Of a stretch of 64,000 nt of DNA, positions 11,553-16,546 are shown piece by piece (within the stretch, counting starts at the first letter, position 1; each line of letters starts with the position of its first letter). The position numbers and the translations under genes were made by a program. Under the pieces are notes generated by a model that did not search any database, was not told the DNA's origin, and worked only from the letters and a program-made list of their open reading frames with translations. The DNA is from Chitinophaga pinensis (GTDB taxonomy: Bacteria > Bacteroidota > Bacteroidia > B-17B0 > Aurantibacillaceae), in contig CAMAPT010000005.1 in NCBI GenBank assembly GCA_945860225.1, positions 62,001 through 126,000 of the forward strand, written 5' to 3'.

Positions 11553-12785
11553 TTATTTAGATGAATGTAAATGGATTTGAGCATTATTTTTCGTAAATAT
11601 CATCTTCGTATCCTCAAAAGCCTCTTGCATTTTTTTTCTATGATTTTCTGAAATGAAGGAAGGGAGTTTAATAGAATCATAAGCCCATTGTGCAGGCAAT
11701 ATGATATGCATTTTTTTCGTTCCATCGCCTCTGTAAACCCATGTTGGCATGTACCAGGCATTCTTAAATTTCGTTATTTGCTTGGTGTGATTTTTTTGGA
11801 CAATTAATTTCAAAATCACTCCTGCGTCTGTATATCTCCAATATTGGTTTGAAAGGAAATTACCAAGCGAGTATGCGATAAATACGGAATCTTTATTTTG
11901 GGAAGAATAAGTTATTTGAGTTGGACCCACCATGTGGGGATGTGCACCAATTACCAATTTAGCACCGGCATCCATGGCCAATTGTACGGCTTTTTTTTGT
12001 TCTTTGGTAGGCTCAATCACATTTTCAACACCCATGTGAAAAAATACCAAAACAATATCTGCTCCCTTTTTTTTTGCTTGCTTGACGTCTTTAAAAATTT
12101 CAACTGAGTCTATCTTATTAAGCATATAATGATGTTCATTGCTTGGATAGGCTCCATTAGTCCCATATGTGTAATTCAGTAAACCTAATTTTATGCCTTT
12201 TTTTTCTATGATTCTGATAGAATCGTGGTCTTTTTGATTAAGGAACGTTCCGGCATATCCTAATTGATGTTGTTTGATGACTTCTATAGTTCGCATTAAC
12301 CCCGCTTCTCGTGTATCCATGCTATGATTATTAGCTGTTACTAAAAAATCAAATCCAGTGTTTTTTAGAGCAGTACAATAGGCATCCGGTGAATTAAAGG
12401 CTGGATATCCGGCATAGGGTTGAGAAGTGCCGGCAAATGTGGTCTCTAAGTTACCTATCGTTATATCTGCATTTTCAAGATATGGTTTGATGTATGTAAA
12501 AGTAGGATTGAAGTCGTATTCCCCGTTACTTAATCGGGCATTATTAGTTTGTGGTAAATGACACATCAAATCACCCACCAGATTAATAGATATTTCGGAA
12601 ATCGAATCTGCAGGAGGTGGTAAATAAGAAACTACTTTAATGGTGTCAAAATTTTCAATTGTAGTAATAGGTGTGTCGGTATCTTTTTTTTCTGTAATGT
12701 TTTTTTGAGGTGTTTTACAAGTAATTAAGAGAATAGCACAGAGTGTACTTGAAATTAAAAGATAAAAAATTAATTTTTTATTCAT
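11553..12785 (-). CDS. CapA-family lipoprotein (metallophosphatase-like)
   Basis: The product is 410 residues. A hydrophobic N-terminus ends in a possible lipobox at Cys23 (LLITC; Thr at -1 is atypical), pointing to the periplasmic or outer-membrane face. The CapA/PgsA domain is clear: VGDLM with GD at 71-72, GNLET (111-115), ANNHSMD (151-157), FFHMG (248-252), GAHPH (280-284) and YSLGNFL. These resemble calcineurin-like metallophosphoesterase motifs. Homologues are tied to poly-gamma-glutamate or capsule production, yet no pgs/cap partners are nearby, so its substrate is open. Its ATG overlaps the stop of a 25-codon basic frame by four bases (ATGA). Confidence 0.85.
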   Translation of the reverse strand: MNKKLIFYLLISSTLCAILLITCKTPQKNITEKKDTDTPITTIENFDTIKVVSYLPPPADSISEISINLVGDLMCHLPQTNNARLSNGEYDFNPTFTYIKPYLENADITIGNLETTFAGTSQPYAGYPAFNSPDAYCTALKNTGFDFLVTANNHSMDTREAGLMRTIEVIKQHQLGYAGTFLNQKDHDSIRIIEKKGIKLGLLNYTYGTNGAYPSNEHHYMLNKIDSVEIFKDVKQAKKKGADIVLVFFHMGVENVIEPTKEQKKAVQLAMDAGAKLVIGAHPHMVGPTQITYSSQNKDSVFIAYSLGNFLSNQYWRYTDAGVILKLIVQKNHTKQITKFKNAWYMPTWVYRGDGTKKMHIILPAQWAYDSIKLPSFISENHRKKMQEAFEDTKMIFTKNNAQIHLHSSK

Positions 12786-12859
12786 AACGTTTCACGGCTT
12801 TGCCTTTGCGACTTTTGAAATACTTTCTGGTTTAAACGTCGAATTTTTTGTTTTTGCAT
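12782..12859 (-). CDS. Possible 25-residue basic peptide overlapping the capA-like gene
   Basis: The frame starts at ATG 12859, reads MQKQKIRRLNQKVFQ then KSQRQSRETL, and ends in a TGA overlapping the downstream ATG as ATGA. The peptide is rich in Lys, Arg and Gln. The overlap would couple its translation to that of the lipoprotein gene, and an A/G-rich stretch (AAAGAGAAC) lies just before its start. I recognise no homologue, and at this length it may be chance. Confidence 0.3.
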   Translation of the reverse strand: MQKQKIRRLNQKVFQKSQRQSRETL

Positions 12860-12888: not shown

Positions 12889-13272
12889 TTAAAATAAATT
12901 CATTTGGCCACTATTATCTTCTTTTACTTTTTGCTTGTAAACTTTTTGATATGTTTGAATATTTTCAACTATCTCTTGGCGTTCTTCTGTCTTAGCAACT
13001 GCAGTTTCAATATCTGCAACAGCTAATTCAATTTCATTAGGGGTATCGGTTATTTCATTTTCCGCTTTATAAATACGAGCCTCAATTAATTGGCTTCGCC
13101 ATACTTCTAATAACTCTAAAGAATCTGTATTGTTTTTTTGCTCGGCTATTTCCATTTGAATATGAATTATATCTAAACGGTTTGATAGTTCTTTGTCAGG
13201 TAATCCTGCTAAAAACAATATGTTTGCTTCAGCATTATCAATAGCTTCTTTTAATCGCACATCTTTACTCAT
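12889..13272 (-). CDS. Small helical partner of the restriction-modification enzyme, with QMNLF tail
   Basis: The product is 127 residues and predicted mostly helical and acidic, with heptad-like stretches (AVADIETAVAKTEERQEIVENI). Its start overlaps the 3' end of the large restriction-modification gene by eight bases, so the two are translated together. I recognise no domain. The last five residues, QMNLF (123-127), fit the pentapeptide by which bacterial proteins bind the replication sliding clamp (QLSLF-like, Qx-x-LF). Binding to the DnaN clamp is an inference. It could be a specificity, stability or inhibitor subunit. Confidence 0.7.
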   Translation of the reverse strand: MSKDVRLKEAIDNAEANILFLAGLPDKELSNRLDIIHIQMEIAEQKNNTDSLELLEVWRSQLIEARIYKAENEITDTPNEIELAVADIETAVAKTEERQEIVENIQTYQKVYKQKVKEDNSGQMNLF

Positions 13273-16117
13273 TATTACCTCCTTCTGTAATGGCGATTTC
13301 TTCGGGAGTTAATTCATATAAATCATAAACTAATTGATTTATTTTTTCTTCGCTGTGCTCAATGCGTTGTTTAACTTGATCTATTTTTGTTTGAAGTTTT
13401 ATTTCTTTAATTTCTTCATTTAATTTTAAAAGTAAATCAACATGTTTTATTATTTCATTTTGGATTTCTTTTTTTGCAGCAATAAATGGTAACTGTTTTA
13501 CATTTATAGTTTTAACTTGTGCAAATGCTCTCCCTTCTTCGCTTACTGCTTTTGAATAATAATAATTTAATAACTTGGAATTAAAAATACCCAGGGCATA
13601 TTTTAAATTAATTGTAATATCATTTTTTGGAACTATAACATGTACAGTTTTATCGTTATGATATTTATTGAAATCCAATGTTCCAATCAAACTGCTTGAA
13701 GTTTGGCGATAAATTAATTTTGGGCTTCTTTCTAAAATCTCAGCTGAGAAACGAAAAGTATCATTTTCATCAAGAAATTTTTGATAATTATGTTTTAAAT
13801 ATTGCGTGGGCTCATTAATTGAATATCTATTAAAATTGCTACCTTTTAGGTAAGGTATATCTTTAGCATGTGCTTTAGAACCTTTGTAAAGAATTCTGCT
13901 ACCTATTGAATCACCTCTTTGTTTCCCTCTTCCTTCTGACCAGTAATTATAACCGACATCTTTAACCAAAAAATAATCATCAATTTTAGAATATTTATCA
14001 AGTTTTTGAATTATATCATCTTTATAAACATAAATTTCAGAATTAGATTTTATAGACGACTTAATTGTATTTAAATCGGATTTCATTATCCAATTCTTTC
14101 CAGGTTTTTCGTTTGTAATATTAAAAATACACGTAAATACATTTGCTGAACTGAAAATTAATTTATTTCCAAAATCAACAATTTCATTTATTTTATATTT
14201 ATTTAGTGATAATCTAAGATTTTTAAAATAATCCCCTCTAATAAAACTGTTAGGTGTAATCATTGAAAATTCTCCTTTTGGTTTCAAAAGATTTAAGCAT
14301 TTTGCAATAAATGCAACGTATAAATCATTATTTCTTTGGAAAACGGGATAATTTTGTTCAAGATATTTTTTTACTTCATCATTGAATACGATTACATAAG
14401 GAGGATTACCAATAACTACATCAAACCCGCCTTGTTTAAAAACACTTGAAAACTGCTTTTTCCATGAAAAAGGTTTAATTTTTTTTTCTTCACCAAAATC
14501 AATAGAAGAATCGTATATATCAGTATCAATTAAACTGTTTCCGTCTTTAATGTTTTCATCAAGATTAGGGAGTACACGGTCGTTTAAATTTAAAGTAATT
14601 GTTTTTACACTTGCTTCTGTTTCGCCCTCCATACATTTAAGTAGTAAACTTAATTTACTTACTTCAACAGCATTGGCATCTAAATCAACCCCATAAATAT
14701 TATTTACTAATATTTGTTTTTTTATTTTGGTTGTAAGTTTACCATCAGGAGTTAGAGGTAGTAAACTTCTTTCTTTTATTGTTTGATTTTTTTCTTTTGC
14801 AGCAACTCCCTTATCATCAATTATACTGGTTAGCCTTTTTTGCTCTTTGTAATAAAAGTCTAAGTGCCAATCTAGTAAATATTGGTAAGCACCAAGTAAA
14901 AAAGAGCCAGAGCCACAGGCAGGGTCAACGATTTTTATTTTTTCAACGTCTTCTGTTTTTTTGCCGTCAATTAATTTTCCTACGGTGTTTTTTACAATGT
15001 AATCTACAATATATTGTGGCGTGTAATATACGCCACCTGCCTTACGAACTTCGGGTTTTTCTTCGATTTTTACACCACGAGCGGGAGTAATTCGAATAAC
15101 CTTACCTAAAAATTGTTCGTAAGCATTACCTAAAATTTCAACAGGCATTACCGAAAATTCAAAATTACATTTAGGGTAATATAAATCTTCAACAACTGTT
15201 TTTATAACCTTATTATCAACTTTTAAAGTTTTGGTAATTCTATCTTTTTCAAAATCAAATAAACCACTGTTGTATTTATCATCAGCTTGTTGAAATAGAT
15301 TGAGCAAGTTTTTATAAGCATCGCCTTTTGATGCTGCTACTTGTAGTTGTCCGTATGGTTCAACGGAACGGTCTTCGCAAAAACGTAAGAATATTAAACG
15401 GTCAATAGTTTGTTGTACCGCATAATTTAATTCTTCGTCATTAATTTTTTTATTATTTAATGCAATACTTGTTGCTAAGTATTTACGCCATTGGTCTAGG
15501 CTTTCAACAAAGCGTTTGTCAAGTGTATCTGTACCTTTTTTGTTTGCACTAGCTTGAACAAATTTATCAAAGCGACCTTTTGTAACTGCTTCGTGTGAAA
15601 AGGTATCATATAAAAAATCAAATTCTTTTATATAATCTGCAAACCCAATATGTTTTAAACGTGCTACGGTTGCACTATCATTTAAGTTAGGAACTTTAGA
15701 GCAATCATAAACAATAAAGTCTTCAAAATTAGTAAGGATAGAAACGTGCGCTTGCGCACTACTACCATAACGACGTAATTGATAAGCAGATTCTTTATGT
15801 GTTTTAATTGCAACAGCAGGTTTTTTAGCTTCCACATAAAACAAACGTTTTTTTCCGCTTCCCGATAAGCGAAAGCCGTAATCGGGAGCTTTCGCTTTGC
15901 CACGAACTACAACTTTATCTTCGTAAATAACTTCACGGTATGCTTCGCTATCACCTTTTTCATTATCAATGTCCCAGCCCAAGGCTTTAAAGAAAGGATT
16001 AATAAAATCCTGCCTTGCCTTTTGTTCGTTATAGTCTGCTAAATGGTATTCTTTGCGGTGTTCGGCAAAACGCTCAACAAGTTTTTCTATAATGGCTTTA
16101 GCCTGTTCTCTGGACAT
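13265..16117 (-). CDS. Single-chain restriction-modification enzyme (Eco57I-like type IIG)
   Basis: The protein is 950 residues. An N-terminal nuclease domain of the HsdR_N type carries the PD-(D/E)xK triad Asp79, Glu96, Lys98 (PDYGFRL, then FYVEAKKP). A helical linker leads to an adenine methyltransferase with the SAM loop DPACGSG at 398-404 and the catalytic NPPY at 571-574. From about 740 there is a TaqI-like specificity domain (YLKGSNFNRYSINEPTQYL, IYRQTSSSLIGTLDF), then a C-terminal coiled coil ending LYELTPEEIAITEGG. One chain can thus cut, methylate and recognise DNA. All motifs look intact. The recognition site cannot be read from sequence. The gene next to it encodes a 127-residue partner. 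Confidence 0.9.
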   Translation of the reverse strand: MSREQAKAIIEKLVERFAEHRKEYHLADYNEQKARQDFINPFFKALGWDIDNEKGDSEAYREVIYEDKVVVRGKAKAPDYGFRLSGSGKKRLFYVEAKKPAVAIKTHKESAYQLRRYGSSAQAHVSILTNFEDFIVYDCSKVPNLNDSATVARLKHIGFADYIKEFDFLYDTFSHEAVTKGRFDKFVQASANKKGTDTLDKRFVESLDQWRKYLATSIALNNKKINDEELNYAVQQTIDRLIFLRFCEDRSVEPYGQLQVAASKGDAYKNLLNLFQQADDKYNSGLFDFEKDRITKTLKVDNKVIKTVVEDLYYPKCNFEFSVMPVEILGNAYEQFLGKVIRITPARGVKIEEKPEVRKAGGVYYTPQYIVDYIVKNTVGKLIDGKKTEDVEKIKIVDPACGSGSFLLGAYQYLLDWHLDFYYKEQKRLTSIIDDKGVAAKEKNQTIKERSLLPLTPDGKLTTKIKKQILVNNIYGVDLDANAVEVSKLSLLLKCMEGETEASVKTITLNLNDRVLPNLDENIKDGNSLIDTDIYDSSIDFGEEKKIKPFSWKKQFSSVFKQGGFDVVIGNPPYVIVFNDEVKKYLEQNYPVFQRNNDLYVAFIAKCLNLLKPKGEFSMITPNSFIRGDYFKNLRLSLNKYKINEIVDFGNKLIFSSANVFTCIFNITNEKPGKNWIMKSDLNTIKSSIKSNSEIYVYKDDIIQKLDKYSKIDDYFLVKDVGYNYWSEGRGKQRGDSIGSRILYKGSKAHAKDIPYLKGSNFNRYSINEPTQYLKHNYQKFLDENDTFRFSAEILERSPKLIYRQTSSSLIGTLDFNKYHNDKTVHVIVPKNDITINLKYALGIFNSKLLNYYYSKAVSEEGRAFAQVKTINVKQLPFIAAKKEIQNEIIKHVDLLLKLNEEIKEIKLQTKIDQVKQRIEHSEEKINQLVYDLYELTPEEIAITEGGNNE

Positions 16118-16546
16118 AAAAATGATAAAATCTGGATTTTAAATATACAATTTTAAGCGGTTTATGTGATGAGATTTTAAAAGGTTGTTAAAGGTATTGA
16201 AAAGTAGCAAACTAAAAAACAGCACACTTATGGCGCGCTTATAATTATTCAAGCACAAACGTAAACAAAATGCGAAGCACATCTTTTTTTGGACAAGAAT
16301 TTAGCTATTTGATTTTTTACCTATTTTTTATAAAATGCAAATATGTTGAGTTTGGGATAGCAAAAATGGATTTTTAAAACCCGCAAAAGAGCTTAGATAA
16401 GTAAAAACTAAAAACTATTTATATAACCTAAAACTGTTATTACTGAATCTGTTCTGCATCGAATAAAAATATTGTTTTGGATGTCGAAAAGTTAAAATGT
16501 CGCTGTAAAGTTTTTTTTCTGATGCATTGGCTGCATTAAAGATAAT
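16118..16546. other. Gene-free stretch upstream of the restriction-modification operon
   Basis: About 430 bases hold no open frame of note on either strand. Nearest the restriction gene is the inverted repeat AAAATC-TG-GATTTT (16127-16140), ten bases before its start, where an operator or stem could act. The rest is AT-rich with no tRNA-like, transposase-like or repeat structure that I can see. An island edge is possible, but nothing direct supports it. Confidence 0.5.

Follow-up and report, generated by a model that had tools for sequence, protein, structure and literature searches.

Restriction-modification enzymes of the MmeI family methylate one strand of asymmetric sites, and one daughter ends fully unmethylated; the review passage that describes this calls it unclear how such MmeI-site daughters are distinguished from foreign DNA (PMC4081073), and according to a passage of another review, how systems acting at asymmetric sites cope in vivo with a passing fork is mostly obscure (PMC12707154). 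The locus described here raises the question of whether a small protein, encoded by a gene overlapping that of a single-chain restriction-modification enzyme and ending in a clamp-binding-like pentapeptide, could tie such an enzyme to the replication machinery. The window, i.e. the whole stretch of DNA that was analysed, comprises 64,000 nt of Chitinophaga pinensis (GCA_945860225.1, contig CAMAPT010000005.1, positions 62,001-126,000).

The enzyme and its classification

The enzyme gene and the parts of its product have the following window coordinates:

13265..16117, minus strand: type IIG restriction-modification enzyme, 950 aa (ORF, Pfam, PADLOC, motif alignment)
15824..15883, minus strand: nuclease active-site stretch D79...E96-x-K98 (HSDR_N match; aligned residues)
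14906..14926, minus strand: methylase motif DPACGSG, enzyme residues 398-404 (read in the sequence; alignment)
14396..14407, minus strand: methylase catalytic motif NPPY, enzyme residues 571-574 (read in the sequence; alignment)
13487..13855, minus strand: TaqI_C-like specificity domain, enzyme residues 755-877 (Pfam)
13283..13471, minus strand: enzyme C-terminal helices, residues 883-945 (AlphaFold2: 883-905, 909-933, 938-945)

The protein joins a nuclease, a gamma-class N6-adenine methylase and a single TaqI-like specificity domain in one chain, and Pfam, PADLOC and the motifs together place it among the type IIG enzymes, whose defining traits are one polypeptide carrying a nuclease, a gamma-class methylase and a specificity domain, and AdoMet-stimulated cleavage that falls a fixed distance away from the site. 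It scored above the Pfam cut-off for HSDR_N, Eco57I, N6_Mtase and TaqI_C, and its best PADLOC model was REase_MTase_IIG (E 2.5e-185). D79, E96, K98, DPACGSG and NPPY were invariant in all 14 aligned enzymes of the clade described below, and the ORF, Pfam and this 14-row alignment thus bear out the earlier note on this DNA, which had described a 950-residue single-chain enzyme with intact nuclease and methylase motifs. The AlphaFold2 model of the enzyme was poor overall (mean pLDDT 55.3), with the C-terminal helices mostly well scored; in this model, residues 883-945 are a possible docking site for the partner. The approximately 430 bases upstream of the enzyme (window 16118-16546) hold no listed ORF of at least 60 aa.

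Assignment to the MmeI family or to the BREX PglX methylases was rejected because of the scores, MmeI_Mtase reaching only 55.9 bits vs 146.7 bits for Eco57I, with no further MmeI domain listed, and BREX_1_MTaseX reaching 147 bits against a curated cut-off of 500. A Pfam scan of seven genes flanking the enzyme found no BREX genes, six being otherwise named and one unmatched. We also considered whether the enzyme carries a clamp motif of its own. An internal QISLF-like stretch (EASIKQQISLF) is present in the methylase region of many enzyme relatives; it was not counted, because the window enzyme does not have it and because it lies within a conserved part of the methylase. None of the C-termini inspected among the relatives ended in a clamp motif.

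The overlapping partner gene

The partner and its parts are as follows:

12889..13272, minus strand: 127-aa partner protein (ORF; homologues)
13057..13266, minus strand: partner helical domain, residues 3-72 (AlphaFold2 helices 3-12, 14-22, 26-45, 49-72)
12907..12957, minus strand: variable partner linker, residues 106-122 (low AlphaFold2 confidence; alignment)
12892..12906, minus strand: clamp-binding-like motif QMNLF, partner residues 123-127 (alignments)

The two genes lie on the same strand and overlap by 8 nt (13265-13272), the partner ATG (13272-13270) falling within the final codons of the enzyme gene; ORF coordinates, strand and AlphaFold2 helices therefore agree with the overlap by a 127-residue helical protein that had been reported earlier. 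In the AlphaFold2 model the partner is helical (mean pLDDT 72.8), with a block pLDDT of 72-93 in the helical domain, in which L29, Q39, A43, A65, R66 and K69 are conserved in a 17-row alignment. Residues 106-127 have a pLDDT under 50 and the linker is variable, as is expected of the flexible tail of a beta-clamp ligand, and by this prediction tail and linker are likely disordered. Searches of Pfam, NCBIfam, PADLOC, PHROGs and PDB sequences with the partner gave nothing below E 0.01, and its fold had no PDB match at E <= 0.001 with Foldseek. Between the partner and a PGA_cap gene there is a basic open frame of 25 residues (window 12782-12859, minus strand), the stop of which, read by eye, overlaps the start of the PGA_cap gene.

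Conservation of the C-terminal motif

Scanning 84,980 species genomes for matches to the enzyme yielded 79 loci (L028-L106), most records with close matches being labelled Bacteroidetes. The partner was then compared with the reading frames of L001-L106, where L001 stands for the window, and besides the window 16 full-length and 4 short homologues were kept; L002 (E 0.0019) and L064 (E 0.035) were dropped as weak matches, and the partner profile did not recover the L002 genome match. A class-level search with this 17-row profile gave matches in 19 of 395 genomes (24 rows), and in a phylum-level sample the only genome with a match (1 of 395) was the window's own. The class-level rows comprised the window, eight repeats of earlier loci (L166, L168, L169, L170, L173, L175, L176, L184), nine new intact partners (L167, L171, L172, L174, L177, L178, L179, L181, L185), four rows for three broken genes (L180; L183/L188; L186) and two short forms (L182, L187), which brings the distinct intact full-length proteins to 26. 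No partner relatives were found in viral contigs, and the plasmid search returned only weak Bradyrhizobium matches, mostly to IS66 genes.

The earlier note had taken conservation of the terminal Q-x-x-L-F in homologues as the check on its proposal, and Q and F were kept in all 26 of these proteins (17/17 in the first alignment). The form Q[LM]x[LM]F fits 24 of the 26, the exceptions being QFDLF (L178) and QTSLF (L179), and the commonest is QLSLF, several homologues having DDSQLSLF; one residue follows the motif in L062 and three in L181. The family thus has the Q-phi-x-[LM]-[FL] pattern of beta-clamp ligands, for which QLxLF is the best form, and its members mostly carry the published clamp-binding consensus. 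Mean top-residue frequency is 0.92 over residues 123-127 vs 0.42 over linker residues 104-122 (17-row alignment), and no block of the partner is conserved as well as the motif. Its codons vary (e.g. the second position is written with five different leucine codons and with ATG), which points to conservation at the protein level. Common descent may explain part of the pattern, the other 16 aligned partners being 41-64% identical to the window protein. In the broken genes L183 and L186, QLSLF can still be read, either downstream of the stop or by shifting to the adjoining frame.

Chance occurrence was assessed with the pattern Q[LMIF]x[LF]F directly followed by a stop. The window's own 2.9-Mb genome contains 62 DNA matches, 49 with a true stop, and among these 49 only the partner is an ORF of at least 60 aa. 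L001-L106 contain 1,125 reading frames of at least 100 aa, 20 of which match the partner at a loose cut-off; 18 of the 20 carry the motif (the window counted twice), which leaves the weakly matching L002 and L064. Among the remaining 1,105 frames, a single one ends in the motif, namely a Y1 (IS200-like) transposase (L062:58-519, plus strand) with the ending QLSLFE, on a contig that also holds a tailed partner; by its sequence, this is a candidate second C-terminal clamp motif.

In the cited passages of PMC11139829, the clamp-binding consensus is QL(S/D)LF with QLxLF binding strongest, natural sites mostly have negative flanks and can form C-terminal tails, and E. coli Pol III alpha has an internal QADMF. 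On the host side, the DnaN of this genome is 27% identical to E. coli K-12 DnaN over 344 aligned columns, and of the ten subsite-I residues, taken from a passage of a review, six are identical (R152, T172, H175, L177, P242, V247); the changes are M at L155, A at G174, K at R176 and A at R246, the last read off the printed alignment. The host DnaE carries an internal QASLF, 241 residues before its end.

Association of partner and enzyme

A tree of 106 enzyme N-terminal regions (treekit, quick, mixture off, SH-aLRT) placed the tailed partners in one clade with support 100 (23 of 106 rows). In 21 of these rows an intact tailed partner adjoins or lies near the enzyme, L208 has a frameshifted partner and L033 is cut by the contig end. 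Over the 21 clade rows and those 55 rows outside it whose downstream sequence extends 1.4 kb or more (2.5 kb or more in 44 of them), the tailed-partner state changes once on the tree. Partner distances correlated with those of enzyme residues 1-560 (Spearman 0.73, permutation p 0.001); the correlation was weak for the C-terminal helices (0.31, p 0.09) and absent for residues 601-880, which include the specificity domain (0.01, p 0.45; 14 pairs throughout); mean enzyme identity over the same regions is 0.78, 0.66 and 0.29, respectively. Since the partner tracks residues 1-560 and not 601-880, partner and catalytic core are inherited together, and specificity is swapped independently of them.

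In 8 of 16 loci with a tailed partner (L028, L031, L032, L034, L037, L041, L062, L098), one to three other genes stand between enzyme and partner, and both are kept. The intervening genes include PDDEXK_3, HEPN_AbiU2-like, Trypco2, DUF559 (twice), RES, Bro-N and Y1_Tnp, the others being unmatched. Across these eight loci the junction is a hot spot at which unrelated genes insert, and the DUF559 gene inserted in L028 begins with MSNDISIQQ, resembling the start of the partner, as if it had entered at the partner 5' end.

Several homologues count against a tether. Most enzymes of the family on the tree are without a tailed partner. Six short homologues (L043, L047, L052, L088, L182, L187) end before the tail, the first four of them beside enzymes outside the tailed clade, and L042 encodes a distant 126-aa homologue without the motif. 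Most of the short forms lie directly behind enzymes outside the clade, L043 with decayed tandem copies. An enzyme match (E <= 1e-40) was found in 12 of 18 genomes with a partner match, the window's own left out, and in none of G592, G494, G697, G453, G466 and G627. No enzyme was found near L174/L190 or L179/L192, and only a 49-aa enzyme-like end near L177/L196; L172 and L178 are close to contig ends. Both deviant motifs, QFDLF and QTSLF, come from enzyme-less genomes (G494 and G592), which fits relaxed selection, although the likewise enzyme-less G466 keeps QLGLF. In G525 (67% complete), the partner that accompanies an enzyme is frameshifted (L186), and a different contig carries an intact partner with no enzyme nearby (L174/L190).

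Proposed role and alternative explanations

The reading that we put forward, with about even chances of being right, is that the partner serves the type IIG enzyme as its own clamp-tethering subunit and so enables remethylation behind the fork. The helical N-terminal domain would bind a conserved part of the enzyme, the disordered tail would dock its motif into the hydrophobic pocket of DnaN, and clamps that the replication fork leaves in its wake would thus retain the enzyme, allowing it to remethylate asymmetric sites before its nuclease can act. A one-strand modifier would need such a tether, since replication yields one daughter duplex with no methylation at all, and the single specificity domain and single methylase suggest that this enzyme faces the same fork problem as the MmeI family. 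By rough estimates, the tail very probably binds DnaN and the partner probably binds the enzyme; whether maintenance is the main purpose of the tether is, again roughly estimated, evenly balanced. What the earlier note had proposed as a dedicated clamp-tethering subunit has gained partial support: the genes, the conserved motif and a host with a suitable clamp and polymerase are shown, and the single clade and co-inheritance with the catalytic core supply a link to the enzyme, while clamp binding, enzyme binding and the choice between a methylase and a nuclease role, together with the asymmetric site and maintenance, are what we infer.

A real tether might serve restriction instead, positioning the nuclease on replicating, clamp-carrying DNA to survey phage or plasmid molecules that are copied by means of the host clamp. 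With both activities in one polypeptide a tether would move both, and some of these loci also contain defence-type genes (PDDEXK_3, HEPN_AbiU2-like, Bro-N); keeping a nuclease at the fork of its own cell would, however, be hazardous unless methylation were faster, and we consider this explanation rather unlikely. Another possibility, which we regard as distinctly unlikely, is that the partner binds DnaN without being an enzyme subunit and shares no more than the operon with it, acting on the clamp independently as a regulator or an inhibitor of growth. SocB of Caulobacter, which acts on DnaN via a clamp-binding motif (cited passage of PMC9690074), would be the precedent, and three partners without an intact enzyme nearby would fit. 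The confinement to one enzyme clade, the correlation with the enzyme core and the overlapping genes speak against it. Of the three enzyme-less homologues, moreover, two belong to genomes that gave no enzyme match, and one of these two has a deviant motif, as would be expected of relics.

It is improbable that something other than clamp binding conserves the pentapeptide, for instance a contact with the enzyme or with a different replication protein: its sequence and setting match the published clamp consensus, as given in the cited part of PMC11139829, and the host DnaE has its QASLF. The tail-less homologues beside enzymes do favour this idea, and they imply that no function shared by the entire family depends on the tail. 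The same tail-less forms, and a small overlapping downstream gene, would also suit an ordinary regulator of enzyme activity (e.g. one delaying cleavage) for which clamp contact is minor, yet the motif is better conserved than any other block of the partner, and this we think very improbable. If the tethering of the enzyme by its partner is true, a five-residue clamp motif on a small adaptor would be a physical answer to how an unmethylated daughter is marked as self, and the adaptor reading can be probed by single substitutions in the motif.

Comparison with known systems

No bacterial restriction-modification system with a clamp-binding subunit was found described in searches of an open-access library, subscription papers and preprints being outside this scope, and by word counts the terms methylase, methyltransferase and restriction are absent from PMC2705854. 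The earlier statement that no case is described for this family agrees with these searches, which do not span all published work.

One parallel in function is eukaryotic. DNMT1 on PCNA is a precedent for clamp-tied methylation, a clamp-held methylase remethylating new DNA (cited passage of PMC9690074), and the likeness holds if the tether reading is right. In DNMT1 the methylase itself binds the clamp and there is no nuclease, and the proteins are unrelated to those of the window. We suggest tentatively, and with somewhat less than even confidence, that the window encodes a bacterial counterpart, in which a restriction-modification adaptor holds a methylase-nuclease on the replication clamp and a one-strand modifier thereby survives host replication. 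Among bacterial beta-clamp ligands, Pol II and Pol IV have the motif at the end of a tail, as the partner does (cited part of PMC11139829), although these are polymerases and the partner is a small protein without a recognised enzyme domain. The Y1 transposases of the IS200/IS605 type are mobile-DNA proteins thought to be directed to the fork through DnaN, as is proposed for the partner; they are transposases and not restriction-modification partners, and the consensus motif is not conserved among them (cited passage of PMC6006769). With the type IIG enzymes (PADLOC REase_MTase_IIG, PDLC03604; Eco57I-like), the window enzyme shares a nuclease, a gamma-class adenine methylase and a C-terminal specificity domain in one chain, and unlike them the window system adds a separate, small and conserved partner gene with a clamp-binding-like tail.
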